A stretch of DNA of 64,000 nt from Opitutus sp. GAS368 (GTDB taxonomy: Bacteria; Verrucomicrobiota; Verrucomicrobiia; Opitutales; Opitutaceae), in the NCBI RefSeq assembly GCF_900104925.1, contig NZ_LT629735.1, positions 2,388,291 through 2,452,290 on the forward strand, read 5' to 3'. This document shows positions 4,042-36,544 of this stretch, piece by piece (the stretch's first letter is position 1; the number at the start of each line of letters is the position of its first letter). The notes under the pieces are model-generated. The model had not been told where the DNA came from and did not search any database. It saw nothing but the letters and a program-made list of their open reading frames with translations. A program made the translations under genes and the position numbers.

Positions 4042-4044
4042 ACC

Positions 4045-16897: not shown

Positions 16898-16933
16898 GGA
16901 CTAGGTCCGGGGTTTCCCGTAGGACTTAGGTCT
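16898..16933. promoter_or_regulatory. Tandem dyad sites before the stand-alone receiver gene
   Basis: Two related dyads, ggactaggtcc at 16898-16908 and ggacttaggtct at 16922-16933, begin exactly 24 bases apart in the gap between the FixJ-like regulator and the receiver gene. They match the site at 14644. They are probably regulator-binding sites for the receiver gene's promoter; the binder is not shown. Confidence 0.4.
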
Positions 16934-16990
16934 AATGGCGGTTCCGAGTTGGCAAGTGTATCCTATCGAATTGTTATTATTCCACTGAAC

Positions 16991-17844: not shown

Positions 17845-18780
17845 TTACCAAGGCAGCGGGGCCATCTTGAGCTCCCGCTCCCAAAGGGCGCGAATCGCCC
17901 GCACAGTTTCCGGCAGCAGCGCGGCGTTTCCAGCGGCAATATTGTCCAGCACCTGCCCGGTGCTCTTGGCTCCAGGTATAACCGTGGACAGCTCGGGTTG
18001 CGCCAAGACATAGCGAAGGGCGGCATGGGAGAGTGAAAGACCCGGCGGCACCAAGTCCGCAAATTGCTTCACGAGCGCCGCCCGGCGTGTAATAACCTCC
18101 GGGGTCCAGCGGTCGCGCACCCCGTCGAAACGGCTATCGCTCCGATATTTTCCGGACAACCATCCCGAATCAAGCGGCACCTTGGCGATTAATCCCACAC
18201 CTTTTTTCTGCGCCCCGGCAAAGGCCGTAAGAGGCTCCTGATGGAAGGCATTGAACAACACTTCGATCACCCCGCTCCCAGTGGTTGCCACGACTTGGGC
18301 GAGATCGCACCCTGAGTCGAGCGAAACGCCGTAGCACCGCAACCAGCCTTCCTTCTTCAGCCGTTCCAGTTCACCGTAAAGCGCGGTTCGGTTGCCATCC
18401 ATTAAAGCTGCCGGCGGATTGTGAACGAGCAGGACGTCGAGATAGTCGGTCTGAAGCCGGCGCAAACTGGCGGCGACCGCAGGACGCAGTGCCGCTATGT
18501 CGAAATTTGTCTCGCCTTCGGCCGTGTGGCCGAATTTTGAGCAGAGCACGACCTGTCCCCGGACGTTCTTCAATGCCCGCCCCAGCAAATCTTCGCTGCG
18601 TCCCTCCGAGTAACCCGGAGCCGTGTCGAAGAAATTGCACCCCGCATCCCGAGCAACTTGCACCATGCGCAATGCTTCGTCCGCATCTTGCATGCCCCAA
18701 ACCGGATTGGCGAGTTGCCAGCCACCGAAACCGATCTCGCTGACGATGATCTGACTTAAGCCGAGGGTACGGTATTTCAC
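17845..18780 (-). CDS. Aldo/keto reductase
   Basis: A 311-residue TIM-barrel NAD(P)H oxidoreductase. It opens with KYRTLGLSQIIVSEIGFGGW and has FFDTAPGYSEGRSEDLLG (catalytic Asp and Tyr), VVLCSKFGH (Lys) and DVLLVHNP (His). It ends with the cofactor segment TVIPGAKSTGQVLDNI. The start is GTG. It is divergently transcribed from the LysR regulator gene about 315 bases away, so it could be under that regulator. The substrate is not predictable. Confidence 0.88.
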   Translation of the reverse strand: MKYRTLGLSQIIVSEIGFGGWQLANPVWGMQDADEALRMVQVARDAGCNFFDTAPGYSEGRSEDLLGRALKNVRGQVVLCSKFGHTAEGETNFDIAALRPAVAASLRRLQTDYLDVLLVHNPPAALMDGNRTALYGELERLKKEGWLRCYGVSLDSGCDLAQVVATTGSGVIEVLFNAFHQEPLTAFAGAQKKGVGLIAKVPLDSGWLSGKYRSDSRFDGVRDRWTPEVITRRAALVKQFADLVPPGLSLSHAALRYVLAQPELSTVIPGAKSTGQVLDNIAAGNAALLPETVRAIRALWERELKMAPLPW

Positions 18781-22293: not shown

Positions 22294-22754
22294 GATGGCG
22301 CAGTCAGGCGCAAGCAGCCGTCACTGAGGATCAGCGCGCGCAGGCCGCCGCGGCCCTGCAGCCACTGCTCGGCTCCGGGCGCGAGGGCCTGGTCCATCCA
22401 GTAGCACGGCTTGCATTCACCCATGCCGCGAAAGCGCACGCCTTGGACGGTAAATTCCCTGCCGATGAGTGTCATCAGGTCGACGCCCCGTGTCAGCACG
22501 TTGCGCCGGTAGGCGGAAGCGGGGGCGACCGGGAGCTTCAGCGAGCGCTGCAGGTGCTCGTGAACCTCTGCGGCGAAAAACGTAATCTGGCCGGGGTAGT
22601 CAGGCTTGTGGTCAAAAAAGCGATCGCCGCGCAAACCGCGCCCGGCGACGCATTCCACCGATTCCACGGACTCGATGGCGTGCGTGCCAGACGGCTGCCC
22701 ATGGTGGCCGACATAATTGTGCCCGGGGGAAATGAAAATAGCCTCGATGTTCAT
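22290..22754 (-). CDS. MOSC domain protein
   Basis: A 154-residue protein consisting of one MOSC (molybdenum cofactor sulfurase C-terminal) beta-barrel. Landmarks are GLRGDRFFDHKPDYPGQITFF and RNVLTRGVDLMTLIGREF, with two Cys close together in MGECKPCYWMD that may carry sulfur or bind cofactor. The ATG before NIEAIFISPGHNYVG fits MOSC N-termini better than an upstream in-frame start. Four-base overlaps on both sides join it to fdhD and mobA. The role is probably Moco handling for the YdeP-like enzyme. Confidence 0.88.
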   Translation of the reverse strand: MNIEAIFISPGHNYVGHHGQPSGTHAIESVESVECVAGRGLRGDRFFDHKPDYPGQITFFAAEVHEHLQRSLKLPVAPASAYRRNVLTRGVDLMTLIGREFTVQGVRFRGMGECKPCYWMDQALAPGAEQWLQGRGGLRALILSDGCLRLTAPS

Positions 22755-23566
22755 GCCCCGCGTACCCGTTCCGCCCCGCAATAGACATTAAATCTTTCGG
22801 CCCGGAGAAATCCGACCAGTGTGAGATTGCCGCGCCGGGCGCATTCAACCGCGAGGGTCGAGGGAGCGCCGATGCCGGCGATCAGAGGCAGTCCGGCGGC
22901 GAGCGTTTTCTGGACGAGTTCAAAGGAGACGCGCCCACTGACCAGCAGAACCGTGTCGCGCAGGGGCAGGCGGGATTCCAGCAAGGCCCAGCCGAGCACC
23001 TTGTCGAGCGCGTTGTGCCGGCCGACATCCTCGCGGAGGCAAAGCAGTTCACCGGCGGAGTTGAAAAGCGCGCTGGCATGAAGTCCGCCCGTCGCGGCAA
23101 ACCCCGGCTGAGCGGCGCGGAGCCGGCCGGGCAGCGTCGCCAGGAAGGCGGGGGTAAACTGCGGTCCGGAAGCTGCCGGCAGGAAATTGTGGGCGACCGC
23201 ATCGATCGTCGCCTTGCCGCACAGGCCGCAGCTCGACGAGCTGAAGACGTGCCGTGTCAACCGGGCAAAGTCGACGGCCACATCCGGCGCGAGCAGGGCG
23301 TCGACGACGTTGCCAGTCTGACCTTCCGGGAGATCGCGGCACATCAGAATATCCAACACGTCGGACGCCTGCCGGATCAGCCCCTCGGTCAGCAGAAATC
23401 CGGCGGCCAGTTCGCGGTCGTGGCCGGGTGTCCGCATGGTGACGGCTACGCTGCGTCCGCTGACGCGGATTTCCATCGGTTCTTCGATGGCGAGGTTGTC
23501 CGTGGAATCTGCGGTGCCGGTTTCGCCCGCTGGCCAGCGAGTGACGGGCAGGCGGGCCGAGTTCAT
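22751..23566 (-). CDS. fdhD: Formate dehydrogenase accessory sulfurtransferase
   Basis: A 271-residue FdhD. In E. coli this protein transfers sulfur from IscS to the molybdenum of formate dehydrogenase. The sulfur-carrying CxxC is C113-G-L-C116 in FSSSSCGLCGKAT; other family blocks are ELAAGFLLTEGLI, REDVGRHNALDKV and SGRVSFELVQK. It overlaps the YdeP-like gene upstream and the MOSC gene downstream by four bases each. The pairing with a YdeP/FdhF-like catalytic subunit is the normal context. Confidence 0.95.
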   Translation of the reverse strand: MNSARLPVTRWPAGETGTADSTDNLAIEEPMEIRVSGRSVAVTMRTPGHDRELAAGFLLTEGLIRQASDVLDILMCRDLPEGQTGNVVDALLAPDVAVDFARLTRHVFSSSSCGLCGKATIDAVAHNFLPAASGPQFTPAFLATLPGRLRAAQPGFAATGGLHASALFNSAGELLCLREDVGRHNALDKVLGWALLESRLPLRDTVLLVSGRVSFELVQKTLAAGLPLIAGIGAPSTLAVECARRGNLTLVGFLRAERFNVYCGAERVRGA

Positions 23567-25947
23567 GCGCGGTGGGCCCGGGCTGCCGCGGCCTGGTCGG
23601 GGCTGGCCGTGAAGCTGACCTCGATCGATTTGCTGGTCGGGGTTTCGCTTTCGTCCGCGATGCTATCGATCGGGACCAGCACGTTGGCTTCGGGGAAATA
23701 CGTCGCGGCACAGCCGCAGGGAATCTCGTAGGGCGCCACCATGAAGCGGTGTGCGATTCGTTCCTGACCGGCGTAATGGCTGGTGATGTCGACGAACAGC
23801 CCCTGCTGGAAACCGAGGGCGGCGATGTCGTCGGGATGCAGGAAAACCACTCGGCGTCCGCCATGGATGCCGCGGTAGCGGTCGTCGAGGCCGTAGATCG
23901 TCGTGTTGAACTGGTCGTGCGTGCGCATCGTCTGCAGCAGGAACCGGCCGGGTGCGACCGGCACAAAGCTGGTCGCCGCCGTGTGGAAATTGGCGCGCCC
24001 GGTGGCGGTGCGGAAGACGCGTTCGCGGGCGCCGTTCGGCAGGTAAAACGGGCCTTGGCTGATGCGCGCGTTGAAATCGGTGAAGCCGGGAATCACCCGC
24101 GAGATGTGGTCGCGGATGATCGCGTAGTCATGGCTCATGCCGGTCCAGTTGATCGTCGATGAGGGCAGCGTGGCGCGGGCGATGCCCGCGATGATGGCCA
24201 CCTCGCTGAGCAGGGTGTCGCTGACCGGTTTCAAGCGACCGCGCGACGAACCCACGATGCCCATCGAATCCTCCACGGTGACGAATTGCTCGCCCGTGGC
24301 GCGTTCGTCGCTGTCGGTGCGACCGAGGCAGGGCAGGATCAGGGCGGTGCGGCCGGTGATGAGGTGGGAGCGGTTGAGCTTTGTGGCGATGTGGACGGTC
24401 AGGTCGCAGCGGCGCAGTGCCTCGGCAGTGAACGCGGTGTCGGGCGTGGCCTGCAGGAAATTTCCGCCGAGCGCGACGAAGGCCTTCACGCGACCGTCGT
24501 GCATGGCCTTGATGGCCTCGACGGCACCGTAGCCGTGATGGCCCGGCGGGGTGAAATGAAATTCCTTCTCCAGCGCCGCGAGCAGGGTGTCGGGCGGTTT
24601 TTCCCAGATGCCCATGGTGCGGTCGCCCTGCACGTTGCTGTGGCCGCGCACCGGGCACACGCCGGCGCCGGTCCGGCCGATGTGGCCGCCCAGCAGCAGC
24701 AGGTTCACGGCGTAGCGGATCGTATCGACGGCGTTCTTGTGCTGGGTGAGGCCCATGGCCCAGCAGATGATCATGCGCTTGGAGCCGGCCATCATGGCGC
24801 CAGCGGCGCGAATGTCGGACTCAGCCACGCCGGACAGGCGCACCCATTCGGCAAAGTCGCCTTCGCGGATGTCCTTGGCGAATTCGTCGAAGCCCGTGGT
24901 CAGGTTTGCGATGAAATCCCGGTCCAGCACCGAGCCGGGGTTGGCCTGTTCGGCCTCAAGTATCAGGCGGGCGAGCGCCTTGAAGAGCGACAGATCGCCA
25001 TTGAGGCGCACGGGCAGGAACAAATCGCTCAACGCCGTGCTTTTGCCGAGCAGCATGGCGGCAAACTTGAGCGGGTTGGAGTATTCCTCGGGGTTCGGAT
25101 TCTTCACCCGCATCAGGCCGACCTCGCGCAGCGGGTTGATCGCGATGATCTTCGCGCCGCGCTTCTTGGCGTTCTCCAGCGTCGTCATCATGCGTGGGTG
25201 ATTGGTGCCCGGGTTCTGGCCGGCGATGACGATCAGGTCGCTGGCTTCGAGGTCCTCAAGCGTGACCGTGCCCTTCCCGATGCCGATGGCGGCGTTGAGC
25301 GCGCAGCCGCTCGATTCATGGCACATGTTGGAGCAATCCGGCAGGTTGTTCGTGCCGTAGGCGCGGGCGAAGAGCTGGTAGAGGAAGGCCGCCTCGTTGC
25401 TGGCGCGACCCGACGTGTAGAACGCGGCCGCGTCTGGCGAGGGTAGGGCGCGTAATCGTTCGCCGATGAGCGTAAAGGCCTCGTTCCACGCCATGGGTTC
25501 ATAGTGATCGCTGCCAGTGCGAAGCACCATGGGCTCGGTCAGCCGGCCTTGCAGTTCGTGCCAGTGGTCGGATTGCTCCGCGAGGGCGGATATGGAGTAT
25601 TCGCGGAAAAATTCCGCGGTGATTGTCCGGGTCGTGGCCTCACTGGCGATGGCCTTGGCGCCGTTTTCGCAAAACTCGAAGACATGGCGCTTCTCATCCG
25701 GACTGGGCCAAGCGCAGCTCTGGCAGTCGAAACCGTCCTTTTGGTTGACCTTGGCAAACGCCTTGGCGGTGCGCACGACACCCGCGCGGCCCAGACCATG
25801 TTCGAAACTCTTGGCAATGGCGGTCAAGCCGGCCGCGGCATGAGGCAAGGGCTTAAGCCGGGGGGTCGTCGTCTCAGGCGGCGGCTCTGCGCGGGGACCG
25901 GGGAGGGAAGACGGGAGAGGATTCACAGTGGCATGAGCCGGAATCAA
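23563..25947 (-). CDS. YdeP/FdhF-like molybdopterin oxidoreductase alpha subunit
   Basis: A protein of about 794 residues of the bis-MGD oxidoreductase superfamily. It has the YdeP-type N-terminus (DGFDCQSCAWPSPDEKR), then AAFYTSGRASNEAAFLYQLF, NMCHESSGCALN with a candidate Mo-ligand Cys, IAGQNPGTNHPRMM, RTGAGVCPVRGHSNVQGDR and a C-terminal dinucleotide-binding domain. It lacks the four-Cys [4Fe-4S] pattern of classical FdhF, keeping only one CxxC. No in-frame ATG exists near the start: it must begin at TTG (used here) or a GTG seven codons later. It follows the SDR gene by 14 bases and overlaps fdhD. The electron acceptor and substrate are unknown; no beta or gamma subunit gene is present. 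Confidence 0.88.
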   Translation of the reverse strand: MIPAHATVNPLPSSLPGPRAEPPPETTTPRLKPLPHAAAGLTAIAKSFEHGLGRAGVVRTAKAFAKVNQKDGFDCQSCAWPSPDEKRHVFEFCENGAKAIASEATTRTITAEFFREYSISALAEQSDHWHELQGRLTEPMVLRTGSDHYEPMAWNEAFTLIGERLRALPSPDAAAFYTSGRASNEAAFLYQLFARAYGTNNLPDCSNMCHESSGCALNAAIGIGKGTVTLEDLEASDLIVIAGQNPGTNHPRMMTTLENAKKRGAKIIAINPLREVGLMRVKNPNPEEYSNPLKFAAMLLGKSTALSDLFLPVRLNGDLSLFKALARLILEAEQANPGSVLDRDFIANLTTGFDEFAKDIREGDFAEWVRLSGVAESDIRAAGAMMAGSKRMIICWAMGLTQHKNAVDTIRYAVNLLLLGGHIGRTGAGVCPVRGHSNVQGDRTMGIWEKPPDTLLAALEKEFHFTPPGHHGYGAVEAIKAMHDGRVKAFVALGGNFLQATPDTAFTAEALRRCDLTVHIATKLNRSHLITGRTALILPCLGRTDSDERATGEQFVTVEDSMGIVGSSRGRLKPVSDTLLSEVAIIAGIARATLPSSTINWTGMSHDYAIIRDHISRVIPGFTDFNARISQGPFYLPNGARERVFRTATGRANFHTAATSFVPVAPGRFLLQTMRTHDQFNTTIYGLDDRYRGIHGGRRVVFLHPDDIAALGFQQGLFVDITSHYAGQERIAHRFMVAPYEIPCGCAATYFPEANVLVPIDSIADESETPTSKSIEVSFTASPDQAAAARAHRA

Positions 25948-25961: not shown

Positions 25962-26714
25962 TTAAAGCGACGCCAAAAACCCTCCGTCCACATATAGGAT
26001 CTGTCCGTTGACGAAATCAGATGCGGGTGACGCCAGAAACACCACGGCTCCGACAAGATCCTGGGGCGTTCCCCATCGGCCAGCCGGTGTGCGCTGTTTC
26101 ACCCAGGCATCGAAGTCGGGTCTGGCGGCGAGATGCTGGGTCATCTCGCTCAACATATACCCCGGACCAATGCCGTTTGCTTGGATGCCGCGGCGTCCCC
26201 ATTCCACCGCCATGGCCTTGGTGAGCATCTTCAGGCCGCCTTTGGCCGCCATGTAGTTCCCCGTGGTGGGCCGGCCGGCTTCGCTCATCAGCGAACAGAT
26301 GTTGATGATTTTTCCGCGGCCACGGACCAACATGGTGGCGACGGCGGCCTGAGAGGTCAGGAAGGCGCCGGTCAAATTGGTGTCCAATACGCATTGCCAG
26401 TCGGCGAGCGCCAGTGTTTCCAAAGGACCGTAACGGTGGATCCCGGCGTTGTTGACCAGGATGTCGATCGGCTCCAAGCCGGACGCGAACGCGGCGTTTA
26501 TGGCAGCGGCATCGGTTACATCGAAGGCGAGCGGTTGTGCCCGGATACCCGAGCCGCGCAATTCGGCCGCCGTAGCCGCGGCGCGCAGCGGATCAATATC
26601 GTTGATGATGAGCTCAGCGCCGGCGGAGGCGAGGCCTCGCGCCATGGCGAGGCCAAGTCCTTGGCCAGATCCTGTGATCAACGCACGCCGGCCTGTTAAA
26701 TCGAAGAGATCCAT
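25962..26714 (-). CDS. SDR-family oxidoreductase, gluconate 5-dehydrogenase-like
   Basis: A 250-residue short-chain dehydrogenase. It shows TGSGQGLGLAMARGLA (cofactor), NNAGIHRYG, catalytic Ser in IINICSLMSEAG and YMAAK (Tyr-x3-Lys), and ends in GQILYVDGGFLASL. The overall style is that of gluconate 5-dehydrogenase and KduD proteins that reduce keto-gluconates. It is the last sugar gene of the inositol run, 57 bases after iolG. A role on 5-keto-2-deoxygluconate or another inositol-derived keto acid is possible but is inference. Confidence 0.88.
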   Translation of the reverse strand: MDLFDLTGRRALITGSGQGLGLAMARGLASAGAELIINDIDPLRAAATAAELRGSGIRAQPLAFDVTDAAAINAAFASGLEPIDILVNNAGIHRYGPLETLALADWQCVLDTNLTGAFLTSQAAVATMLVRGRGKIINICSLMSEAGRPTTGNYMAAKGGLKMLTKAMAVEWGRRGIQANGIGPGYMLSEMTQHLAARPDFDAWVKQRTPAGRWGTPQDLVGAVVFLASPASDFVNGQILYVDGGFLASL

Positions 26715-26771: not shown

Positions 26772-27779
26772 TCAGGACTGAAAATGTTTGGTTGGGAGCT
26801 TGATTGCTCGTCCCGTGCGAAGCGACTTTGCCGCCGCTTCGGCGAGGACCAGTGCCTGGCGACCATCTTCGCCGTTTACGGGAAGCGGTTTGCGCTGGGT
26901 TGTCGCCTCGACGAAGGCAGACAACTCGAGCCGGTAGGCGACGGCGTATCGCTCAAGGAAGAAATGGAGCGGCTTGTCCACGCTTACCGAACGGGCGTCG
27001 GCCAGTTCAACAGTGGTCGGGGTAAGATTGCCGGCGAGCAGTCGGCCTTTGGCGCCGTGAACTTCGACGCGCTGATCGTAACCGTAGGCGGCGCGACGAC
27101 TGTTATTGATGTGGGCGAGCTTTCCCGAGGCGGTTTTCATCACCACCATCACCGAGTCCGTATCGCCGGCATGCGCGATGTCCGGATCGATCAGGCAGCT
27201 GCCGGCGGCGAAGACTTCGACCGGCTCCTCGCCAAGGAGCCACCGCGCCATGTCGAAATCGTGAATCGTCATGTCGCGGAACTGTCCGCCGGAGATTTTG
27301 ACATAGCTCACCGGCGGAGGGGCGGGGTCCCGGCTGGTGATAATCACTTGCTCGACCGCGCCGATCTCTCCGGTGCGAAGCCGGCGGTGCAACTCTGCGA
27401 AGCTCGGGTCGAATCGGCGATTGAAGCCGACCAGCATCGGAACCCCGGCCTTTTTCACGGCGGCAAGACACGCATCGACCCGCTTTAGCGAGAGATCAAT
27501 GGGTTTCTCGCAGAAGATGGCCTTACCGGCGCGGGCGGCGGCAATCACGAGATCGGCGTGAGTGTCGGTGGAGGAGGCAATGATAACCGCGTTGACTTCG
27601 CGGTCGCCGAGGGCGGTGGCGGTATCGACAACGCGGGCTCCATATTTTCCCGCGAGGGCTTGGGCGCTGGCGGGATTGACGTCCACGACATAGCGAAGGC
27701 GGGCGTTAGCGGAAGCCGCCAGATTGGCGGCATGGATAGCACCGATGCGTCCGGCGCCGAATTGAGCGAAAGTGAGCAT
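26772..27779 (-). CDS. iolG: Inositol 2-dehydrogenase (Gfo/Idh/MocA family)
   Basis: A 335-residue NAD-dependent enzyme that oxidises myo-inositol to scyllo-inosose, the first step of the pathway. The Rossmann motif is FGAGRIGAIHAANL. The conserved EKP (AIFCEKPIDLSLK) and the catalytic stretch GGQFRDMTIHDFDMARWLLG with Asp and His are typical of IolG. It sits between iolA and an SDR gene in a run that also holds iolB, iolD and iolE, which strengthens the functional call. Confidence 0.92.
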   Translation of the reverse strand: MLTFAQFGAGRIGAIHAANLAASANARLRYVVDVNPASAQALAGKYGARVVDTATALGDREVNAVIIASSTDTHADLVIAAARAGKAIFCEKPIDLSLKRVDACLAAVKKAGVPMLVGFNRRFDPSFAELHRRLRTGEIGAVEQVIITSRDPAPPPVSYVKISGGQFRDMTIHDFDMARWLLGEEPVEVFAAGSCLIDPDIAHAGDTDSVMVVMKTASGKLAHINNSRRAAYGYDQRVEVHGAKGRLLAGNLTPTTVELADARSVSVDKPLHFFLERYAVAYRLELSAFVEATTQRKPLPVNGEDGRQALVLAEAAAKSLRTGRAIKLPTKHFQS

Positions 27780-27818: not shown

Positions 27819-29315
27819 TTACTTGCGCCAAATGTCGCCTTCGCCGTCAATAAACCACCGGGACGTGGTGACCTTTGGTTGCGTATAGAACATGACGCCG
27901 GCGCGGCCCTGCATGTGCAGATCGCCGAAGAACGATTCGTTCCAGCCACTGAAGGGGAACATCGACATCGGCGCAGGCACGCCGACATTGATGCCGATCA
28001 TGCCGGCCGACACGCGATGCTTGAACTCGCGCGCGGCGGCACCGCTGCGGGTGAAGATCGCGGCGCCGTTGCCGAAACTCGATTGGTTCGCCAGCGCGAT
28101 GGCCTGGTCCAGGTCGGACATGTGAAGCACATTGAGCACGGGACCGAAGACTTCCTCCTGCGCGAGCTTCATCTCGGTGCGCACGTCCTCGACGATCGTC
28201 GCACCGAGATAGAAGCCGTTGGGCGCATCCGTGACCTTTACGCTGCGTCCATCCGCGACCACCCTGGCTCCGGCGCGTTCGCCCTCGTCGACCAGGCTGC
28301 GCACCCGATCGCGATGGGCGGCCGTGATGACGGCCCCCATGCCGGGTTGCTTCTCGACGTCGGTGCGACCGACCGTGAGCGCTTGGGCGGCTTTGACCAG
28401 TTCGGGCAGCAGCTTGCCGCCCCGGTCGCCAACCGTCAGCATGCTGGCTCCGGCCATGCAGCGTTCGCCGGCGCAGCCGAACGCGGCGTTCATGATGCCT
28501 TCAACGGTTTTCCCGATATCCGCATCAGGCATGACGACCACGTAGTTTTTGGCGCCGCCATTGGCTTGCACGCGCTTCCCGTGGGCGGTGCCGGTCGTAT
28601 AGACATGCCGCGCGACCGGGGTTGATCCAACAAATGAAACCGCCTTCACCAAGGGATGTTTGAGCAGCGCATCGACCGCGTCCCGACCGCCGTGGACAAG
28701 ATTGAAGACGCCCTTCGGCAGCCCGGCCTCGGCCAGCAATTGGGTGAGACGGATGGCAGTGAGCGGCACGCGCTCACTGGGCTTAAGGACAAAAGTGTTG
28801 CCGCACACGAGGGCGAGCGGGAACATCCACAGCGGGATCATCGCCGGGAAGTTGAAAGGAGTGATGCCGGCGCACACGCCGAGCGGGTGGCGGGCGAGTT
28901 CGCCGTCGATGCCCCGGGCGATGTTCGGCAGCAGTTCGCCCGTGAGCAGAGTCGGCGCGGCACAGGCAAGCTCCACGACTTCATAGCCGCGAAACAGATC
29001 GCCACGCGCCTCGGCGTAGGTCTTGCCGTGCTCGCGGCAGATGAGACGCGCGATTTCGTCGAAGTGTTGTTCGATCAGCGTGCGGTATTTGAACATCACG
29101 CGCGCGCGTTCGACGGCGGGTGTGTCCGCCCACGCTGGAAACGCGGCGTGGGCCGCACGGACGGCGGAGTCGACCTCGGCTGCACCGCCAAGCGGCAGCT
29201 CGCCGAGGACTTCGCCGAGCGAGGGATTGAACACCGGCGAGCGCGGGGCGCCCGCAAAGGTCGTCCATTCGCCGTCGATATAGAAAGGATGTTGGAAGGA
29301 GGTGGGGTGGGTCAT
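27819..29315 (-). CDS. iolA: Methylmalonate/malonate semialdehyde dehydrogenase (CoA-acylating)
   Basis: A 498-residue aldehyde dehydrogenase of the MmsA/IolA family, which turns malonate semialdehyde into acetyl-CoA and CO2. Landmarks are GVCAGITPFNFPAMIPLWMF, AVSFVGSTPVARHVY, the catalytic Cys in GCAGERCMAGAS and the IGINVGVPAPMSMFPFSGW segment of this family. The ATG before THPTSFQHPFYIDGEW was chosen over an upstream in-frame one because homology starts there. In an iol locus it performs the last step. It follows the transaldolase-like gene by 133 bases. Confidence 0.93.
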   Translation of the reverse strand: MTHPTSFQHPFYIDGEWTTFAGAPRSPVFNPSLGEVLGELPLGGAAEVDSAVRAAHAAFPAWADTPAVERARVMFKYRTLIEQHFDEIARLICREHGKTYAEARGDLFRGYEVVELACAAPTLLTGELLPNIARGIDGELARHPLGVCAGITPFNFPAMIPLWMFPLALVCGNTFVLKPSERVPLTAIRLTQLLAEAGLPKGVFNLVHGGRDAVDALLKHPLVKAVSFVGSTPVARHVYTTGTAHGKRVQANGGAKNYVVVMPDADIGKTVEGIMNAAFGCAGERCMAGASMLTVGDRGGKLLPELVKAAQALTVGRTDVEKQPGMGAVITAAHRDRVRSLVDEGERAGARVVADGRSVKVTDAPNGFYLGATIVEDVRTEMKLAQEEVFGPVLNVLHMSDLDQAIALANQSSFGNGAAIFTRSGAAAREFKHRVSAGMIGINVGVPAPMSMFPFSGWNESFFGDLHMQGRAGVMFYTQPKVTTSRWFIDGEGDIWRK

Positions 29316-29448
29316 TTGAAAATGGCTATCGAGACGCGAAAGATACAGGCGCCAAAGGGTCGATCCGCACCAAACGTCAGGGATGGATGATCGATCCAAG
29401 CGTTTTCTCCTGATGAGTTGAGGTTTGGGAACGGGGGTTCATTACGAC

Positions 29449-30507
29449 TCAGCCGAGCATGGCCGCCCGGACGATGGCCAGAAGATCGGCGTAGCCGGCG
29501 AGAAACTGGTCGAGCGTATGCACGGTCGCGCCGTAACGGACGAACTCCGCCCGTTTCATGCCGTCCTCGTCGTGCGCCTTGATAAAGTCGGGAAACTTCG
29601 CACGCAGTTCGGCGAGGATGGCGTCGTCCACCGGTTGGTCGAGGGTCAGGCGGGGCTGCGCGGCGGCATTGTTGAACTTCGTCCACCACGTGTATGGTAT
29701 CGTCTGCAGGACCTCGCGGCCGATGATCTGCGACCAGTGGCCTTCGTGGCGATAGGCCGCGGCGAGCAGTGTGCCTGGCCGGCCGCTCTCCAGAAAAAGC
29801 CGATGGGCGCGCTTGAAAACGGCGATGCCGGCCCAGTCGATGACCCCGGGCGTGGTGGCAATCTTCTTCGCCGCGGCGACACGTTTCAATTGATCGTCCA
29901 CGCGGCCAATCATCAGCGTGATGTAGGGACGGATCGCGTCGGCGTCGTGGCCGGCTGCGCGCGCGCGTTTGAGCCCGCGCTCCAAGGCGGCGGACACGGC
30001 GAGGGCCTGTGGCACGGTGAAGCTGACGGTGGCGTTCACGCGCACCCCGCGCGCCGTCATCTCTTCCATGGCGGCGATGCCGGTGTCGGTGGCTGGCGCC
30101 TTGATGGCGATGTTGGGTGCGAGTGAGGTGAGTTCAATGGCTTGTGCGACCATGAGGTCCTTGTTCGGGTAAAACTTCGGGTTCACCTGCATCGACAGGA
30201 ATCCCTTCGCGCCTTTCGTCCTCTCGTAGACGGGTAGGAGTTGCCGCGCGGACTGAATGCCGAGCGCGTGGATGAGCTTCCAAGCGAGTTCGTCCTCGAT
30301 GGCGTGGGGATGATCCTTGATGAGCTGCTCGAGGATCGGCAGGCAGAGCTGGGGATTAGCCTTGGCGGTTTGCGAAACGATGACGGGATTCGACGTGCCG
30401 CCCACGGCCCCGAGCGCCACGGCTTCGCCGAGTTCAGCGGGAGCACCTGAGTCGTTCCACCAATCGGCCCCGAGGGCCGACATCTGGGACATGCGTGAAA
30501 TATTCAT
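29449..30507 (-). CDS. Transaldolase-family class I aldolase in the inositol operon
   Basis: A 352-residue TIM-barrel enzyme of the transaldolase family. It has GGTSNPVIVSQ near the N-terminus, the Schiff-base Lys K136 in NIAIKAPATDTGIAAM, and VRVNATVSFTVPQALAVSAAL after it, the normal transaldolase succession. It is longer than fructose-6-phosphate aldolase (about 220). The ATG giving NISRMSQMSALGADWW was preferred to a TTG five codons upstream. It lies directly after iolE and before iolA, where an IolJ aldolase would be expected. I infer it could cleave an inositol-derived keto acid to malonate semialdehyde; ordinary pentose-phosphate transaldolase activity is the alternative. Confidence 0.85.
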   Translation of the reverse strand: MNISRMSQMSALGADWWNDSGAPAELGEAVALGAVGGTSNPVIVSQTAKANPQLCLPILEQLIKDHPHAIEDELAWKLIHALGIQSARQLLPVYERTKGAKGFLSMQVNPKFYPNKDLMVAQAIELTSLAPNIAIKAPATDTGIAAMEEMTARGVRVNATVSFTVPQALAVSAALERGLKRARAAGHDADAIRPYITLMIGRVDDQLKRVAAAKKIATTPGVIDWAGIAVFKRAHRLFLESGRPGTLLAAAYRHEGHWSQIIGREVLQTIPYTWWTKFNNAAAQPRLTLDQPVDDAILAELRAKFPDFIKAHDEDGMKRAEFVRYGATVHTLDQFLAGYADLLAIVRAAMLG

Positions 30508-30522
30508 GATGATAGGTTTCAA

Positions 30523-31449
30523 TCAGACTCCGGTCTGCTGGCGGACATAGTCGCGGGCGCGAGTGGCCTTGGGCAGGGCGGGCACCTTGACCGGATCCTC
30601 CTCGGCTTCGACCACCAGCCAACCGCGATAGTCCGCACCGGCCAGGAGTGCGAAAATCGCGGGATAATCTACGCAGCCGTCACCGGCCACCGTGAACACG
30701 CCGTTAACCACAGCCCGATAGAACGACCAGCCCTCGCGGCGCACGCGCTCGGCGACTTCGGGCCGGACACTCTTGAGGTGCACATGGGCGATGCGAGCGG
30801 CGTAACGCCGGGCCACGGCAACCGGATCGATGCCGGCGAAGGCAAGGTGGCCGGCATCGAGCAGCAGCCGGAGCTCGGGCACCCCGGCGAGAAGGCGATG
30901 CAGGTCGGTTTCATTCTGGATCACCGTGCCCATGTGATGATGATAGACGACCTGCATGTCCTCGGCCACGGCGAGCGCGGCCAAGTGCTTCAGGCCGGCA
31001 AGCAGCCTGGGCCATTCGGCCTCGCTAAGGCGGGGCGCAAGTTTGTCGCCAAAGCCGAGCGCAGTGTCGCGGTCGCCATGAATGCAACGAGTGCATTCGG
31101 CGACGATCACCACGCGGGCGCCGAGGGCCTTGAGCAGGTTGCTGTGGGCGCGGAAGGAGCGTTCCTCTTCCGCAAGCTCCCGCGAGACGAGATAAGTGCT
31201 GTGCCAGCCGCTGACGAGCCGGAGATCATGGCGGCCGAGGGCATCGGCGAGGGGGCCCGGCGTGCGCGGATAGGCATGGCCCAGTTCGCTGCCAGAGAAA
31301 CCGGCGGTTCGCATTTCGCGGAGAATCGTGTCCAGCGGCACATCGCCCGCGAGATCGTTGAAGTCGTCATTGCTCCAGATGATCGGGTTGGCACCGACGA
31401 GGCAGTCGTGCAGCTGAACGAGGGGCGGGGTGAACGGCAGAGAGGGCAT
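30523..31449 (-). CDS. iolE: Myo-inosose-2 dehydratase
   Basis: A 308-residue xylose-isomerase-fold protein that dehydrates scyllo-inosose. Family blocks are NPIIWSNDDFNDLAGD, VVYHHHMGTVIQNETDLHRL, LLLDAGHLAFAG and IAHVHLKSVRPEV, which supply the metal-binding Glu, Asp and His residues. It ends with YRGWLVVEAEEDP. The gene is three bases from iolD and immediately followed by the transaldolase-like gene, so it is in the core of the operon. Confidence 0.93.
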   Translation of the reverse strand: MPSLPFTPPLVQLHDCLVGANPIIWSNDDFNDLAGDVPLDTILREMRTAGFSGSELGHAYPRTPGPLADALGRHDLRLVSGWHSTYLVSRELAEEERSFRAHSNLLKALGARVVIVAECTRCIHGDRDTALGFGDKLAPRLSEAEWPRLLAGLKHLAALAVAEDMQVVYHHHMGTVIQNETDLHRLLAGVPELRLLLDAGHLAFAGIDPVAVARRYAARIAHVHLKSVRPEVAERVRREGWSFYRAVVNGVFTVAGDGCVDYPAIFALLAGADYRGWLVVEAEEDPVKVPALPKATRARDYVRQQTGV

Positions 31450-31452
31450 AAA

Positions 31453-33354
31453 TCAGTAATAGAAGCGTTGTTTCTTCACCGCTTTCTCGTAGGTGCGGCG
31501 GGCCGCGCGCACGGACGGGACTCCCGACAGTGCGGCCGGGGGCACATCCCACCAGGAGAAGCCCTGCATGACCGAATGCGGCGTCACCGGCACGTAGATG
31601 AGGCAGGTGTTGCGCTCAGCCCGGGCGGCAGTGAGGGCCTGCTTGAGCGATACCGCATCGGTGGCGGTAAACACCGTTGCCCCAAGACTGCGGGCATTGG
31701 CGGCGTAGTCGACGGTGAGAGGGGCACCGTCCAGGCGGCCGCTCGTGCCCGACCGGTGCCGGAATTCGTTGCCGAAGCTGCGGCCGCCGCAGGCTTTCTG
31801 AAGGTTGTGAATGCAGCCGTAGGCGGTGTTGTCGCTTAGCACGACGGTGATCTTCAGTCCTTCCTGCACCGCCGTGACAATCTCGTGGTTGAGCATCAGG
31901 TAACTGCCGTCGCCGAGAAAGGCATAAACCTCCCGCTCCGGATCAGCCAGCTTGACGCCGAACGCGCCTGCGATCTCGTAGCCCATGCAGGAGTAGCCGT
32001 ATTCGGAGTGGTAGTCGGTCGGAGAGTGGCCGCGCCAAAGTTTGTGGATATCGCCGGGGATGCCGCCGGCCGCGTGAACCACCGTGCTGGCTTCGTCGCA
32101 GAATTCATTGAGCACGCGGATGACCTCGCTCTGATACAAGCGACTGTCGGGGCTCGGCTTGCCGGGCGACGTCATCGCGCGCCAGGGCTTTTCCCACGCG
32201 GTCCGGGCGCGGGCGATCGCGCGGGAGTGCGCCGCGGGCACGCGCCAGCCACGGAGCGCCTGGCCGAAAACGGCCAGGGTGGCGCGGGCGTCGCCAAGGA
32301 GAGGGAAGGCCCCGTGCTTGGCCACGTCGGCCGCATGGACGTTGATCGAGATGAAGCGGGCCTTCGGATCTTGAAACTGGCTTTTTGACGCCGTGGTAAA
32401 ATCCGCCAAACGCGTGCCCACGACCACCACGACGTCCGCGATGGTGGCGATGCGATTGGCGGCCAGCGTGCCCGTGACGCCGATCGCACCAAGCCCGAGG
32501 GCGTGGGATTCAAGCAGCGCACCCTTGCCGGCCTGCGTCACAGCCACCGGGATGCCGGTGATTTCGGCGAATTTATTCAACGCGGCGCAGGCGCCCGAGT
32601 AATGCACGCCGCCACCGGCGACCAGCAGGGGGCGTTTCGCGGTGCGGAGGATAGCGGCCGCGGCCGTCAGCGCGGCGATCGGCGGGAGCGCGCGCGGAAC
32701 ATCGTAAACGCGCTTGGCGAAGAAATTCACCGGGCAATCAAACGCCTCGGATTGCACGTCCTCGGGCAGGGCAATCGTGACCGCGCCCGTTTCCGCGGGG
32801 TCGGCCAGCACGCGCATGGCTTCGGGCAACGCGGTCAGGATCTGCTCGGGGCGGTTGATGCGGTCCCAATAGCGCGAAACCGGTTTGAAGCAGTCGTTGA
32901 CACTGACATCCTGCGAGCCGGGGTATTCGAGTTGCTGGAGCACGGGCCCAGGCCGGCGGTTGGCAAAAATATCGCCGGGTAGCAGGAGCACGGGCAGGCG
33001 GTTGATGGTGGCGGTGGCCGCACCAGTGACCATGTTGGTCGCACCGGGGCCGACGGAGGTCGTGCAGGCCAGCGTGCCGAGCCGCCGCTTGGTTTTCGCA
33101 TAGGCAATGGCGGAGTGAACCATGGCCTGCTCGTTTTTTGGCTGAAAATACGGCAGCATTTTACCGCCGTGCTCCTCCAGCGCCTGGCCCAGGCCGGCCA
33201 CGTTTCCATGCCCGAAGATGCCGCAAATACCGTTGATCAGCCGGTGCTCAACGCCGTCACGGCGCACATATTGCGCCTGCAGGAACCGCACCACAGCGGC
33301 GGCAGTGGTAATCCGGACGGTTTTCACGCGAAAAGGTGGGGGGAGGGTTTCCAT
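31453..33354 (-). CDS. iolD: 3D-(3,5/4)-trihydroxycyclohexane-1,2-dione acylhydrolase
   Basis: A 633-residue thiamine-diphosphate enzyme that opens the cyclitol ring to 5-deoxyglucuronate. The N-terminal pyrimidine-binding domain has GICGIFGHGNVAGLGQAL. The C-terminal domain has the TPP motif starting GDGSYLMLNHE and ending VLSDN. IolD-specific stretches include SEYGYSCMGYEIAGAFG and FGNEFRHR. The ATG (ETLPPPFRVKTVRITTAAAV) was chosen because the frame upstream is the shadow of iolB; it overlaps the iolB end by 31 bases. It follows iolB and precedes iolE. Confidence 0.95.
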   Translation of the reverse strand: METLPPPFRVKTVRITTAAAVVRFLQAQYVRRDGVEHRLINGICGIFGHGNVAGLGQALEEHGGKMLPYFQPKNEQAMVHSAIAYAKTKRRLGTLACTTSVGPGATNMVTGAATATINRLPVLLLPGDIFANRRPGPVLQQLEYPGSQDVSVNDCFKPVSRYWDRINRPEQILTALPEAMRVLADPAETGAVTIALPEDVQSEAFDCPVNFFAKRVYDVPRALPPIAALTAAAAILRTAKRPLLVAGGGVHYSGACAALNKFAEITGIPVAVTQAGKGALLESHALGLGAIGVTGTLAANRIATIADVVVVVGTRLADFTTASKSQFQDPKARFISINVHAADVAKHGAFPLLGDARATLAVFGQALRGWRVPAAHSRAIARARTAWEKPWRAMTSPGKPSPDSRLYQSEVIRVLNEFCDEASTVVHAAGGIPGDIHKLWRGHSPTDYHSEYGYSCMGYEIAGAFGVKLADPEREVYAFLGDGSYLMLNHEIVTAVQEGLKITVVLSDNTAYGCIHNLQKACGGRSFGNEFRHRSGTSGRLDGAPLTVDYAANARSLGATVFTATDAVSLKQALTAARAERNTCLIYVPVTPHSVMQGFSWWDVPPAALSGVPSVRAARRTYEKAVKKQRFYY

Positions 33355-34124
33355 CCCTGCTGATGGGGGTCGAGCAACCATTGGTGCGCTTTTGTGACGG
33401 TAAAACCGCGGTAGGGATTGCGGGGCAGATGCCTGACAACCCAGAGGTAATACATTCCGTAGCCGGGAGCGGAAACCTGCGCATGATCGCAGCCGCCGGG
33501 GATCACCGTGGTATCGCCTGACATCACGCGATGCACCCGTTCGCCAGTCTCGGCATGGCCATAACCCTGCGGGGCGGTGAAGCGATAGTGATAGATCTCG
33601 GGCTGCGGGTGGTGATGCGGTGGATAGCTCGACCAGCGGCCGGGCAGGTTGATCACTTCGCCGACCACAAAGGATGAGTCGGGCCGGGCCGTGTAATCGA
33701 AGATGGTTCGCACCAAGCGACGGCAGGCGCCTTGGGCGAGTCCGGCGCCGCGGTCTTCGCCCGCACAGTCCGCCGGCCGATAGAGGCGTGCACCCCGCGC
33801 CTTTGAAGTGGTCGTGCGCATGACCACCCACTCGGAAGCGGTCTGTGATTGGATCTCGGCTTTCTCGTCCCGGCCTAGGCTGACCGTAAACGGCCCCTGC
33901 TCAAAGACGGAACGGCGGGTGGCCACCACCGATTGCCCGGCGACCGTCACGCGCGCCCGGCCGTGCAGGAGAACCACGACGACCTCGGCTTTTGCTGAAA
34001 AACAATGCCGGGATCCGGGCAGCAGCCTCAACAGGCCGAAATCCATCTTTGCCGGGACGTTGAAATCCCGTTCGCGCACCAACCAGGTTGTTCCGGGCGA
34101 GAAGAGAGCCTTGGATGTTTTCAT
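33324..34124 (-). CDS. iolB: 5-deoxy-glucuronate isomerase
   Basis: A 266-residue double-cupin protein that isomerises 5-deoxy-D-glucuronate to 2-deoxy-5-keto-D-gluconate. The first cupin is poorly conserved; the second carries the metal site in SSYPPHHHPQPEIYHYRF and the later His of DTTVIPGGCDHAQVSAPG. The C-terminal YYLWVVRHLPRNPYRGFTV is an IolB hallmark. It overlaps the upstream Gfo/Idh/MocA gene by four bases and the downstream iolD gene by 31. Confidence 0.94.
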   Translation of the reverse strand: MKTSKALFSPGTTWLVRERDFNVPAKMDFGLLRLLPGSRHCFSAKAEVVVVLLHGRARVTVAGQSVVATRRSVFEQGPFTVSLGRDEKAEIQSQTASEWVVMRTTTSKARGARLYRPADCAGEDRGAGLAQGACRRLVRTIFDYTARPDSSFVVGEVINLPGRWSSYPPHHHPQPEIYHYRFTAPQGYGHAETGERVHRVMSGDTTVIPGGCDHAQVSAPGYGMYYLWVVRHLPRNPYRGFTVTKAHQWLLDPHQQGWKPSPHLFA

Positions 34125-35197
34125 TTTTTTGGCTTACGAGTCACGGCAACGCTCTCTCCCGTCTGGGCCGATTGATACAAGGCCGCAATCACGCCGTAGA
34201 TCCCCGGCTGCACCTCCAGGGGCGAGGCCACCTCGCGGTTTTCCGCGAGGGCGCGTGCCAGATCGATCACCGGGTAGGCGAGAATGCTGTCCCAATCGTT
34301 CATTTTCTCCGCGAGCGCCTCCTCTTGCAGCGTGGCATTGTCGATCCGGTGATACCAAACTAGTCCGGGCGGTCCGCCTCCCGGCATAAACGGCAAATCG
34401 AGTCCCCCGTCGGTGCCCCGGATTTCGGCGCGTTGGAATTGCGGTCCGTGTTCCGGCCGGCGTTCCAGGGAAATTGTCAGCCCACGCTCACACAGAATAT
34501 GGGCGAGATAGCTGGTTTCCAATTTCGTCCCTTCATCCTGCCAGAAGTTGATCGAACCCATGACGGCCTTGGGGACGAAGAGATCGCCTAGGAGATACCG
34601 GAGCCAATCCAGGTCGTAGACGGCCCAATCCATGGCGATGCCGCCGCCGCTGGTGGCGCGCTGGCGTCTCCAGGCGGGCTGCGAGGCCACCGCCCGGGGG
34701 TATTCGCTCGAGATGTTCAGGCGCACCGTGAGGATCTTGCCGAGTCGGCCGCGGGCGATCAGTTCGCGGGCTTTGCGCACCGGCGGGCAGGCGTGAAACC
34801 GGCTGGAGCTGCTGGCCAGCTTCAGGTGGGGATGGCGGCAGTGAGCAGCCTCGACGGCGCGCAACTCCTCGAGGTTCATGACCAGCGGCTTTTCACACAC
34901 GATGTGTTTACCCGCGGCCAGCGCGGCCTCGATTATTTCGCAATGAATATGCGGCGGCGTCGCGATGAAGACAGCGTCCAAGTCAAGCTGCAGCAATTCC
35001 CGGTAGTCGGCACAGGCGGTGATCCCGCCGAATTCCCGGGCCAGCTGCGCCGCGGCGCCGGGCTTGCTGCCCGCGATGGCGGCCACCCGGAGCGAGTCGT
35101 CGCGCAGGAGCGTCGGCCGGATCATCCGGACAATTTCCCCGGTCCCGATGATGCCAAACGCGGGACGGCGGGCCGAATCGATTTTCCCCAAGGCCAT
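34121..35197 (-). CDS. Gfo/Idh/MocA-family oxidoreductase
   Basis: A 358-residue NAD(P)-dependent sugar or cyclitol dehydrogenase. Rossmann motif GIIGTGEIVRMIRPTLL, conserved EKP (HIVCEKPLVMNLEE), then YRELL and the typical C-terminal sheet domain (SGGGIAMDWAVYDLDWLRYLLG with catalytic Asp). It is distinct from iolG in the same run, so it may act on another inositol isomer, an O-methyl inositol or a glycoside. It lies 12 bases after the ferritin-like gene and overlaps iolB by four bases. Confidence 0.88.
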   Translation of the reverse strand: MALGKIDSARRPAFGIIGTGEIVRMIRPTLLRDDSLRVAAIAGSKPGAAAQLAREFGGITACADYRELLQLDLDAVFIATPPHIHCEIIEAALAAGKHIVCEKPLVMNLEELRAVEAAHCRHPHLKLASSSSRFHACPPVRKARELIARGRLGKILTVRLNISSEYPRAVASQPAWRRQRATSGGGIAMDWAVYDLDWLRYLLGDLFVPKAVMGSINFWQDEGTKLETSYLAHILCERGLTISLERRPEHGPQFQRAEIRGTDGGLDLPFMPGGGPPGLVWYHRIDNATLQEEALAEKMNDWDSILAYPVIDLARALAENREVASPLEVQPGIYGVIAALYQSAQTGESVAVTRKPKK

Positions 35198-35209: not shown

Positions 35210-36544
35210 TCAGTAAGCCGACTTGGCGACGGTCGTGAGGTGTTTGCCGAGCCCCTCGGCCGCGCCGCAAAAATTGTTGAGTGCCTTTTTCCGGGTTTCG
35301 ATCTCCTCTGCACTGTAACCCTTCTTTTTGAGCGCGGCGATGCGGTAGCGTTCCACGAGGGCCGCGGAGGTCATGCTCTCTCCGGTGGCGAGTTTGAACA
35401 GCTCAGGACTCCATTTGGAGCCATAGCCGGTGTGCAGCCGCTCGTCGGCCACATCGAATTCGCTCTGCACGGCGGACACGATGTCCCCGTGTTGCCGGAA
35501 GGCCTCGGCGCAGGTGCGCTTGTAGCTGAAGGAGCAGGCCTCCGCCCGGTTGGTGAGATCGGAATAAAATTCGTAGTGGTCCAGCGCGGTTGCGTCCTTC
35601 TGGACGTGGCACGGCCCCCAGTAGCGGAAATCCTCAATCTTGAAGCCGAGTTGTTTCAGGCGGCGCAGGCCCATCTCGGTGTGGCGAACCTCGTCCCAGA
35701 TATGGCGGGCCGTGTCGTAGTAGAACTCGAACGGAAGCTCGTGGGAGGAATAGAAGATGTAGGCGACCAGCTCCGAAGCGATGATCTCGGTCGAGTTGAT
35801 GAAGATCATCTGCCGCGTGTGGTTGGCGATGGGGGAGTTTGCCGGGTCCGCGTAGAACTCGTAGGTTCCCTTCTCGTTTTGCGGGATCCGCGTCTGGTAA
35901 TCGCTGGCGACCATGGAAGGATCGCTGCGGCCGTCGACCGGCACCGGTCCCAGCGGTTCGGCCTCCGGAACGGGCGGCCAGCCGTTTTCGTCGCCGTCCA
36001 TGGCGCGGTCGATGCCGGCGAGCACCTGTTCGGAGTAGCGGAGCCATTCCTGGTCCGGTCCGCCCAAGCTGCTGCGGTCATGGTATCGCGCCAGGGGAGT
36101 TGCGGAAAGCCAGTGTTGAATGCGGGCGCGCTCCACCAGGACCACGTTGAGGCAGTCGAGCGTGGGGCTGTTGGTCACCGGGTCAGCCACCGCGAGAAAC
36201 GCATCATAGTCGCGATAGAGCTCCCGGAGCAGAAGGTCGTATCCGGTCCAGAAGGCGCGGGCGGAGGGGGCCAGGGAAATCCGGGTATACGCATCCCGCA
36301 GAATGGCCGGCGGACTGCTGCGATCTGGGAAGGCGCCCGGGAGTTCCCGGATGCGTTGTTCCAGGAACCGCATGTGACGGGAATGCCAGTAACCGATCTG
36401 GCCGGACCACCATTTCTGCTCCCACGTGTCAAAGGCGGGCAGCCATCCGAAACACATGCGGGCCAGCTCGAATTCCCGCCAGAAGAAGTCGCGCAGGGCG
36501 TCGCTGGTTTCATCGGGCGAAAGGTAAGAGGCATACGTCTTCAT
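35210..36544 (-). CDS. Ferritin-like di-iron carboxylate protein of unknown function
   Basis: A 444-residue soluble protein I do not recognise as a named enzyme. Two ExxH motifs, E285-x-x-H288 (HIWDEVRHTEMG) and E368-x-x-H371 (DVADERLHTGYG), are each preceded by a Glu about 32 residues earlier (E253 and E335). That is the six-ligand pattern of a ferritin-like four-helix di-iron site. The N-terminal 200 residues are rich in Trp, Tyr and Arg and have no recognised domain. There is no signal peptide. It is the first gene of the run leading into iolBDE and has the shared promoter-like block about 70 bases upstream. An oxygenase or oxidase acting on a cyclitol derivative is a reasonable but unproven guess. 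Confidence 0.7.
   Translation of the reverse strand: MKTYASYLSPDETSDALRDFFWREFELARMCFGWLPAFDTWEQKWWSGQIGYWHSRHMRFLEQRIRELPGAFPDRSSPPAILRDAYTRISLAPSARAFWTGYDLLLRELYRDYDAFLAVADPVTNSPTLDCLNVVLVERARIQHWLSATPLARYHDRSSLGGPDQEWLRYSEQVLAGIDRAMDGDENGWPPVPEAEPLGPVPVDGRSDPSMVASDYQTRIPQNEKGTYEFYADPANSPIANHTRQMIFINSTEIIASELVAYIFYSSHELPFEFYYDTARHIWDEVRHTEMGLRRLKQLGFKIEDFRYWGPCHVQKDATALDHYEFYSDLTNRAEACSFSYKRTCAEAFRQHGDIVSAVQSEFDVADERLHTGYGSKWSPELFKLATGESMTSAALVERYRIAALKKKGYSAEEIETRKKALNNFCGAAEGLGKHLTTVAKSAY

Follow-up and report, generated by a model that had tools for sequence, protein, structure and literature searches.

The window analyzed here, 64,000 nucleotides from the genome of Opitutus sp. GAS368 (family Opitutaceae), contains a run of genes for inositol breakdown on its minus strand. 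In the direction of transcription, from 34124 down to 26772, these are iolB, iolD, iolE, a transaldolase-family gene, iolA and iolG (Table 1). The transaldolase-family gene, referred to as TAL in the following, is located at 29449-30522 between iolE and iolA. An initial annotation of this DNA had read the run in the same way, and family profile scores confirmed it: IolG, IolE and IolD exceeded the NCBIfam equivalog cut-offs, and IolA exceeded the subfamily cut-off of TIGR01722. The positions of iolA and iolG fall just outside 29449-34124, the span which that annotation had given.

In the canonical Bacillus pathway (IolGEDBCJA), IolC phosphorylates 2-deoxy-5-keto-D-gluconate (DKG) at C6, and IolJ yields dihydroxyacetone phosphate and malonate semialdehyde. 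The Opitutus run has in common with this pathway the homologues of IolG, IolE, IolD, IolB and IolA, presumably the intermediate DKG, and malonate semialdehyde as the substrate for IolA. It differs in that no IolC and no IolJ were found, a transaldolase-family enzyme stands in their place, and IolB is diverged. We consider it likely that TAL cleaves DKG in its unphosphorylated form, be it by transfer of the dihydroxyacetone unit or by its free release.

Table 1. The iol run and its direct neighbors in the window, in the order of transcription (scores written as x/y give bits and cut-off)
Feature	Position	Strand	Profile match and remarks
Gfo/Idh/MocA oxidoreductase	34121..35197	-	PF01408, 75 bits; 4-base overlap with the iolB start
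iolB, diverged type found with TAL	33324..34124	-	PF04962 (KduI/IolB), 179 bits; TIGR04378, 104/205 bits
iolD, trihydroxycyclohexanedione hydrolase	31453..33354	-	TIGR04377, 868 bits, cut-off 715; probable ATG 33354
iolE, inosose dehydratase	30523..31449	-	TIGR04379, 339 bits, cut-off 290
TAL	29449..30507	-	PF00923, 112 bits, cut-off 27; probable ATG start 30507, open reading frame (ORF) open to TTG 30522
iolA, (methyl)malonate-semialdehyde dehydrogenase	27819..29315	-	TIGR01722, 642 bits, cut-off 448.5; probable ATG 29315
iolG, inositol 2-dehydrogenase	26772..27779	-	TIGR04380, 441 bits, cut-off 355
Short-chain dehydrogenase/reductase (SDR), gluconate-5-dehydrogenase-like	25962..26714	-	best NCBIfam match NF005983, 286/408 bits; 3' of iolG

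The ORF of iolD is open to 33831, with the IolD match starting at ORF residue 173, and that of iolA comprises 27819-29399.

Kinases and aldolases of the genome

The genome consists of one contig of 4,150,783 bases (completeness 100). The initial annotation had found neither an IolC-type kinase nor an IolJ-type class II aldolase in the window, and would have taken their presence elsewhere in the genome, if induced by inositol, as an argument against its proposal. By profile searches, the absence holds for the whole genome. The four PfkB genes scored 89.5-103 bits on the IolC model (cut-off 300), so that an IolC-grade kinase is absent genome-wide. The complete genome had no match to the DUF2090 aldolase. 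One class II aldolase (L008) remains; it lies outside the window and is nearest to fructose-bisphosphate models. DUF2090 is of interest here as it has been proposed as an alternative aldolase to IolJ, fused to IolC, in the available text of Price et al. 2022 (PMC9007349). The fusion protein resembles TAL in that a lysine-type aldolase is proposed to replace IolJ; unlike TAL, it is fused to the kinase and belongs to a LacD-related family.

Two genes were considered as substitutes and rejected. The class II aldolase L008 as IolJ is the only copy in the genome and nearest to fructose-bisphosphate models, and is thus probably needed for glycolysis. The PfkB kinase L007 as DKG kinase is KDG-kinase-like; its best NCBIfam match is a KHG/KDPG aldolase/sugar kinase fusion model (264/700 bits), and by eye the adjoining ORF resembles a KDPG aldolase.

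Could the standard route nevertheless operate with parts that escaped recognition? A PfkB of the genome would then make DKG-6-phosphate, a DeoC/LacD-type or the single class II aldolase would split it, and TAL would have a side job. The four PfkB genes and the class II aldolase could serve such a route, and TAL and IolC do co-occur in Clavibacter and SAR324 (see below). Yet by family score two of the PfkBs are ribokinase-like (L004, L005), one is unassigned (L006) and L007 is KDG-kinase-like, and none of them lies in the iol cluster. Moreover, 53 of 54 genomes with TAL lack IolC above the cut-off, yet the association of TAL with the iol genes persists. We therefore regard this explanation as improbable.

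The transaldolase-family protein

TAL falls within the TAL_FSA superfamily (PF00923). Since TalAB (482 bits, cut-off 396) and a transaldolase of a second type (317 bits, cut-off 282) are encoded elsewhere in the genome, TAL is the third member. It missed the cut-offs of the transaldolase equivalog and subfamily models (PRK03343, 106/367; tal_mycobact, 71/234; talAB, 25/396) and that of the fructose-6-phosphate aldolase (FSA) equivalog (TIGR00875, 37/246 bits).

An AlphaFold2 model was calculated on 32 aligned members of the TAL family (mean pLDDT 94.3, pTM 0.91); L123, which contains ambiguous letters, was left out of alignment A3. Among solved structures, the closest folds are those of two long transaldolases, from Neisseria gonorrhoeae (3clm; Z score 39.8) and Corynebacterium glutamicum (3r5e; Z score 38.9), with an rmsd of 2.0-2.2 over 320-333 residues. 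The Z score was about 32 with TalB, about 22 with the sulfofructose transaldolase BmSF-TAL and about 21 with FSA. With 3clm and 3r5e TAL has the whole fold and the catalytic lysine in common; it differs in sequence (24-28% identity) and in that, by profile alignment, their catalytic Glu is replaced by Gln and their active-site Phe by Met throughout the TAL family. The profile match to BmSF-TAL covered about 70 residues only; the fold is shared, and in the fold comparison the identity is 19%. BmSF-TAL is moreover of the short decameric type, handles a sulfonate instead of a carboxylate and belongs to another pathway. In the tree, the 32 members grouped together (support 95/88), followed by the Clavibacter relative, with the other transaldolases and FSA outside; the order outside is unsure, as several of the branches there are very long.

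Residues of TAL are counted here from the TTG at 30522. The catalytic lysine is K141 by this count and K136 from the ATG at 30507; hence the Schiff-base Lys136 of the initial annotation is numbered correctly for that start. K141 is carried by the strand 138-143 (barrel strand 4) in the predicted model, was aligned with TalB K132 and FsaA K85 by MAFFT, and does not vary among the 32 members, all of which also keep N45, N163 and T165. The position of the catalytic Glu96 of TalB, which corresponds to Gln59 of FSA, is occupied by Gln112 in all 32. The invariant Met204 stands opposite TalB Phe178 and FSA Tyr131 when TAL is aligned by profile with 3clm and 3r5e, and its location in the model, where strand 6 ends, agrees with this. 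MAFFT instead sets Tyr200 opposite these residues by means of a 4-residue gap (Tyr in 30 of 32 members, Asn in L117 and L120), so that the residue is not Phe in either alignment. MAFFT with TalB and FsaA also put TalB Asp17 opposite the variable D20, with a gap before VGR; the profile alignment was preferred for D24 and M204. TalB Ser226 corresponds to Ala256 in TAL, as FSA S166 does to Ala, and R207 and R258 match TalB R181 and R228 in the MAFFT alignment; the TalB residues at these three positions have phosphate-binding roles. Judged from the alignments, TAL is a new transaldolase subfamily in which the lysine is kept, the catalytic Glu is changed to Gln and the Phe most likely to Met.

It is very improbable that TAL is an ordinary transaldolase which merely keeps sugar phosphates in balance while the cells grow on inositol. 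The fold and the catalytic lysine are clearly those of a transaldolase, as such a role would demand. However, the genome already has two transaldolases elsewhere, TAL scores far below every listed transaldolase and FSA equivalog cut-off, and none of the 32 members has the catalytic Glu.

Another alternative is the one proposed in the initial annotation, an FSA-like aldolase that cleaves DKG to malonate semialdehyde and free dihydroxyacetone, the latter then being phosphorylated or reduced. It has the core of our reading in common, namely the cleavage of unphosphorylated DKG, and differs in the mode. The lysine, the equivalent of Gln59 (in 32 of 32 members) and the chemistry with dihydroxyacetone donors are common to TAL and FsaA, and MAFFT places the near-invariant Tyr200 opposite FSA Tyr131. 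On the other hand, the profile alignment has Met opposite Tyr131, S166 is Ala, TAL is longer, and its fold is closer to the long transaldolases than to FSA. According to the text available of a study on these enzymes (PMC13259622), Tyr131 of FSA is a proton shuttle, and the activities of FSA and TalB can be interconverted by exchange of the residues which hold a water molecule. If the assignment of Met204 is right, the TAL family would show neither published acid-base arrangement. The residues were also considered as an arbiter between transfer and free release, which they cannot decide; to assign Tyr200 the role of the missing acid-base group would be guesswork. The structure 7oey (E93Q of the Neisseria enzyme) was discarded as a mutant of the catalytic Glu, for the alignments show that another Glu is affected.

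Distribution of TAL and its link to the iol genes

To place the locus in its family, 120 Opitutaceae genomes were surveyed, the window genome included. TAL matches at E 1e-8 or better occurred in 22 of them. The identity was 69-100% in 13 of these and 47% in one (G078); the other eight reached 27-32% along only part of the protein and are taken to be other transaldolases. IolE was above the cut-off in 13 of the 120 genomes, and these are the same 13 that have TAL at 69% identity or more. The initial annotation had suggested looking for adjacency of iolE and the transaldolase gene in other Opitutaceae; the two adjoin in 13 of 13 genomes, in one of them across a contig end, and in 12 of the 13 the locus also includes iolA. 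In the 13 genomes and G078, neither IolC above the cut-off (0/14; best 118 bits) nor DUF2090 (0/14) was detected. The IolC search as such works, because 3 of 14 control genomes exceeded the cut-off.

Further relatives were collected by a pattern-led scan of one genome per species (84,980 species; alignment A1), which yielded 59 loci. The scan relied on two peptide patterns (GADWWND and LAPNIAIK), and relatives with neither of them are missed. Six loci (L137-L142), with 22-41% identity along short segments, belong to other transaldolases and were excluded from the counts; L136 derives from the same genome as L098, of which it is a fragment. The 52 remaining loci (L084-L135) are true TAL relatives with 46-83% identity in the best segment; they represent 51 genomes, as L111 and L134 come from one, and about eight phyla. 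The hosts belong to the Verrucomicrobiota, Lentisphaerota, Myxococcota (including Hyalangium versicolor), Gammaproteobacteria, Bdellovibrionota (Bacteriovoracaceae), Neomarinimicrobiota, SAR324 and Acidobacteriota (Vicinamibacteria), and there are two unplaced bins. Relatives on a Shinella plasmid (32%) were rejected, their cluster being annotated without iol genes.

By strict BLAST thresholds against the window proteins, at least one of iolB, iolD and iolE was present in 42 of the 52 loci, and at least one of iolB, iolD, iolE, iolA and iolG in 48; many loci being short contigs, these counts are lower bounds. An iolB, iolD or iolE stands beside TAL in six groups: Verrucomicrobiota, Lentisphaerota, Myxococcota, Gammaproteobacteria, Bdellovibrionota and Neomarinimicrobiota. 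SAR324 has only iolG beside TAL, and the Acidobacteriota have no iol gene there. IolG, TAL, IolB, IolD, IolE and IolA are encoded in one run, with no kinase found, in L117 (the complete genome of Lentisphaerota strain zth2), L120 and L114; a sugar transporter heads the run in L114 and L117. With the references used, genes for class II, DeoC-like or DUF2090-like aldolases were found in none of the 52 loci. Given the 13 of 13 in the family and the recurrence in other phyla, the link between iolE and TAL exceeds chance.

Beyond the 14 family genomes, 40 further TAL genomes were searched for the missing enzymes. IolC above the cut-off and DUF2090 were each found in one of the 40, both in SAR324, which makes one IolC in 54 TAL genomes overall; the protein behind the one DUF2090 match in the 54 matches DeoC better.

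IolB from TAL clusters scored 84-106/205 bits on TIGR04378 in 11 of 11 proteins tested, which came from six groups (window 33324-34124, L062, L107, L110, L113, L114, L117, L119, L120, L121 and L128). The two IolB proteins tested that are encoded beside IolC, from SAR324 and Clavibacter, are standard (229 and 237 bits). Thus TAL tends to go with an IolB type of its own. IolE beside TAL exceeded its cut-off of 290 bits not only in the window (339) and the rest of the 13 family genomes, but also in L113 (364), L114 (398), L119 (401) and L117 (411). In five genomes without a true iolE at the TAL locus, IolE relatives of 166-212 bits are encoded elsewhere.

As to the surroundings of the run, the Gfo/Idh/MocA oxidoreductase gene upstream of iolB probably belongs to the iol transcription unit; it is not conserved with the cluster, the 14 family stretches containing one weak match (47 bits, L073). 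Further upstream on the same strand, 35210-36544 encodes a 444-residue protein with a DUF455 match of 39 bits and no NCBIfam match. Directly downstream of the SDR gene, 22751-25947 encodes an FdhD-type protein (PF02634) and a formate-dehydrogenase-like molybdopterin oxidoreductase. The gluconate-5-dehydrogenase-like SDR itself recurs beside family clusters (L062-L066, L069, L070, L073), in the relatives on the strand opposite to the iol genes. Runs of SDR, iolD, iolE and TAL without a detected IolB occur in L066, L069, L070, L092, L093, L094, L096, L099, L100 and L132. In the Bacteriovoracaceae locus L121, a xylose-isomerase-like gene and a gene of the inositol-monophosphatase family (PF00459, 163 bits) at 3883-5432 precede the TAL-type iol run, a pair which possibly points to the use of inositol phosphate. 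Among the Acidobacteriota, TAL of L126 follows a phosphodiesterase-type gene (PF01663), and TAL of L118 follows a gene that by eye is similar, located behind a very large ORF which, again by eye, resembles an outer-membrane receptor.

A candidate kinase-free route of inositol breakdown

The interpretation that we consider best is that IolG, IolE, IolD and the diverged IolB produce DKG as in the usual pathway and that TAL takes over from there. Unphosphorylated DKG would be bound through its C5 ketone as a Schiff base on K141, and the C3-C4 bond would be split, whereby IolC and IolJ or DUF2090 would be replaced. Malonate semialdehyde would be released and converted to acetyl-CoA by IolA. The enzyme-bound dihydroxyacetone unit would most likely be passed to glyceraldehyde-3-phosphate to give fructose-6-phosphate, and the acceptor could be regenerated through glycolysis. 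Comparative genomics thus supports the proposal of the initial annotation that a transaldolase-family enzyme takes the place of IolC and IolJ, that the keto acid in its unphosphorylated form is most likely its substrate, and that malonate semialdehyde is left to IolA. The gene content and order, the absence of IolC and DUF2090, the conservation across phyla, the predicted fold and the aligned lysine are the observations from which we infer substrate, direction and acceptor. For the full version, a kinase-free route with transfer to glyceraldehyde-3-phosphate, we see the chances as evenly divided.

The chemistry of the substrate agrees with such a route. Transaldolase donors need a free C1 and a D-threo diol. 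When its carbons are counted from the ketone end, DKG has the form of a 2-ketose with a free C1, a D-threo 3,4-diol as in fructose-6-phosphate and xylulose, and an anionic far end. In DKG-6-phosphate the phosphate is located on the dihydroxyacetone half, and a transaldolase would be expected to reject it. With DKG of the donor type and DKG-6-phosphate presumably blocked, the loss of the kinase and the use of a transaldolase form a consistent pair.

Sulfoquinovose offers a precedent. In PMC9594981, two routes for this sugar are set side by side, sulfo-EMP with a kinase and an aldolase, and sulfo-TAL, in which the glycerone unit is transferred to glyceraldehyde-3-phosphate to give fructose-6-phosphate. 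The sulfo-TAL enzyme SqvA (PMC9594981), a PF00923 protein, cleaves a ketose that has an anionic tail and is not phosphorylated, with no kinase involved, as proposed here for TAL. In the 27 TAL genomes (of 54) that were searched for dihydroxyacetone kinase (Dak1), it was absent from 23, the window genome among them, with 3 of 14 controls positive; the search did not include glycerol kinase, a possible alternative phosphorylating enzyme. Because Dak1 is mostly absent, and with the sulfo-TAL precedent, transfer to glyceraldehyde-3-phosphate is favored over the release of free dihydroxyacetone. The four genomes with Dak1 would suit a release as by FSA, and the SDR whose relatives (at least 200 bits) lie in 19 of the 52 related loci could reduce the dihydroxyacetone. 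Still, with Dak1 missing in 23 genomes, a fold nearer to the long transaldolases (Z 39.8 versus about 21) and the Met at the Tyr131 position by profile alignment, free release appears rather unlikely. Of the initial proposal, cleavage of unphosphorylated DKG is supported by comparative genomics, and the FSA-like mode is the less supported part.

Several findings weigh against TAL as a general substitute for IolC. In one SAR324 genome iolC, iolB and a DeoC-type aldolase gene are side by side, with iolD about 9 kb away (L162); the same genome has IolE (409 bits) on another contig and an iolG-TAL pair apart from these (L109). Plasmid pCI3 of Clavibacter michiganensis (L175) carries a TAL relative at 16839-17963 (41% identity) with iolC nearby, and the cluster also holds iolB, iolD, a gene for a Cgl0159-like aldolase and one for an IolE relative that does not reach the cut-off (138/290 bits). 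Since both carry a TAL relative and IolC, the replacement of IolC is not universal. The Hyalangium genome (G125) has no IolC above the cut-off, but two of its PfkB proteins reach 198 and 152 bits against the IolC model, and Dak1 is present. A PfkB gene was also present in L131 and, weakly (34.5 bits), in L119, the only such cases among the 52 loci. IolB was found in 31 of the 52; in the long loci L100 and L132 iolD is close to the SDR gene with no IolB seen between them.

Other exceptions concern the substrate. In the Acidobacteriota loci L118, L124 and L126 TAL has no iol genes nearby, and the three genomes have an IolE relative below the cut-off (195-202 bits) elsewhere. In L129, L130, L134 and L135 TAL is beside an IolA-like gene with no true iolE near; L129 and L135 also hold SDRs and an AraC-type regulator, and a search at 1e-30 found no IolE in the genomes of L129, L130 and L135. 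One TAL branch or close relative may act on a related or other substrate, and the tie to IolA persists there; perhaps these four loci encode a sister pathway that gives malonate semialdehyde from another keto acid.

The coverage of the searches and the active site count on the same side. Most relatives are metagenome bins, and completeness is not given for the 40 further genomes. The four PfkB kinases of the window genome were assessed by family score only, and the genome-wide search for aldolases covered the IolJ and DUF2090 types, but not the DeoC/LacD and Cgl0159 types. By profile alignment TAL would have neither the Glu of transaldolases nor the Tyr of FSA, so that textbook catalysis is not assured.

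The searched literature (titles and abstract openings, with some passages, most subscription journals and bioRxiv preprints being outside the search) did not connect any transaldolase with inositol catabolism. The aldolase step of inositol breakdown is a recognized gap: among the 26 inositol users of Price et al. (PMC9007349), IolC-DUF2090 occurs in 16 and IolJ in two. A survey by Weber et al. (PMC9430895) counted an inositol cluster where at least three of iolB, iolC, iolD and iolE were present; in its text as available, 'Verrucomicrobi-' does not occur and Akkermansia is named as having no cluster. TAL clusters would score as iolC-less in such a survey, or would be missed where the diverged IolB is not recognized.

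In our assessment the system is a novel version of the known inositol pathway, and the reaction predicted for it is new. Its gene run is present in at least six phyla, and it might represent a third way of finishing inositol breakdown, in which a dedicated DKG transaldolase, with Gln and probably Met replacing the acid-base residues and with its own IolB type, yields malonate semialdehyde and fructose-6-phosphate; the arguments for and against this seem to us about equal in weight. A cleavage that skips the kinase, in an active site seemingly without both known acid-base residues, would be relevant to enzymology and to the building of routes via malonate semialdehyde and acetyl-CoA. If true, the DKG transaldolase would relate to IolC and IolJ as sulfo-TAL does to sulfo-EMP.

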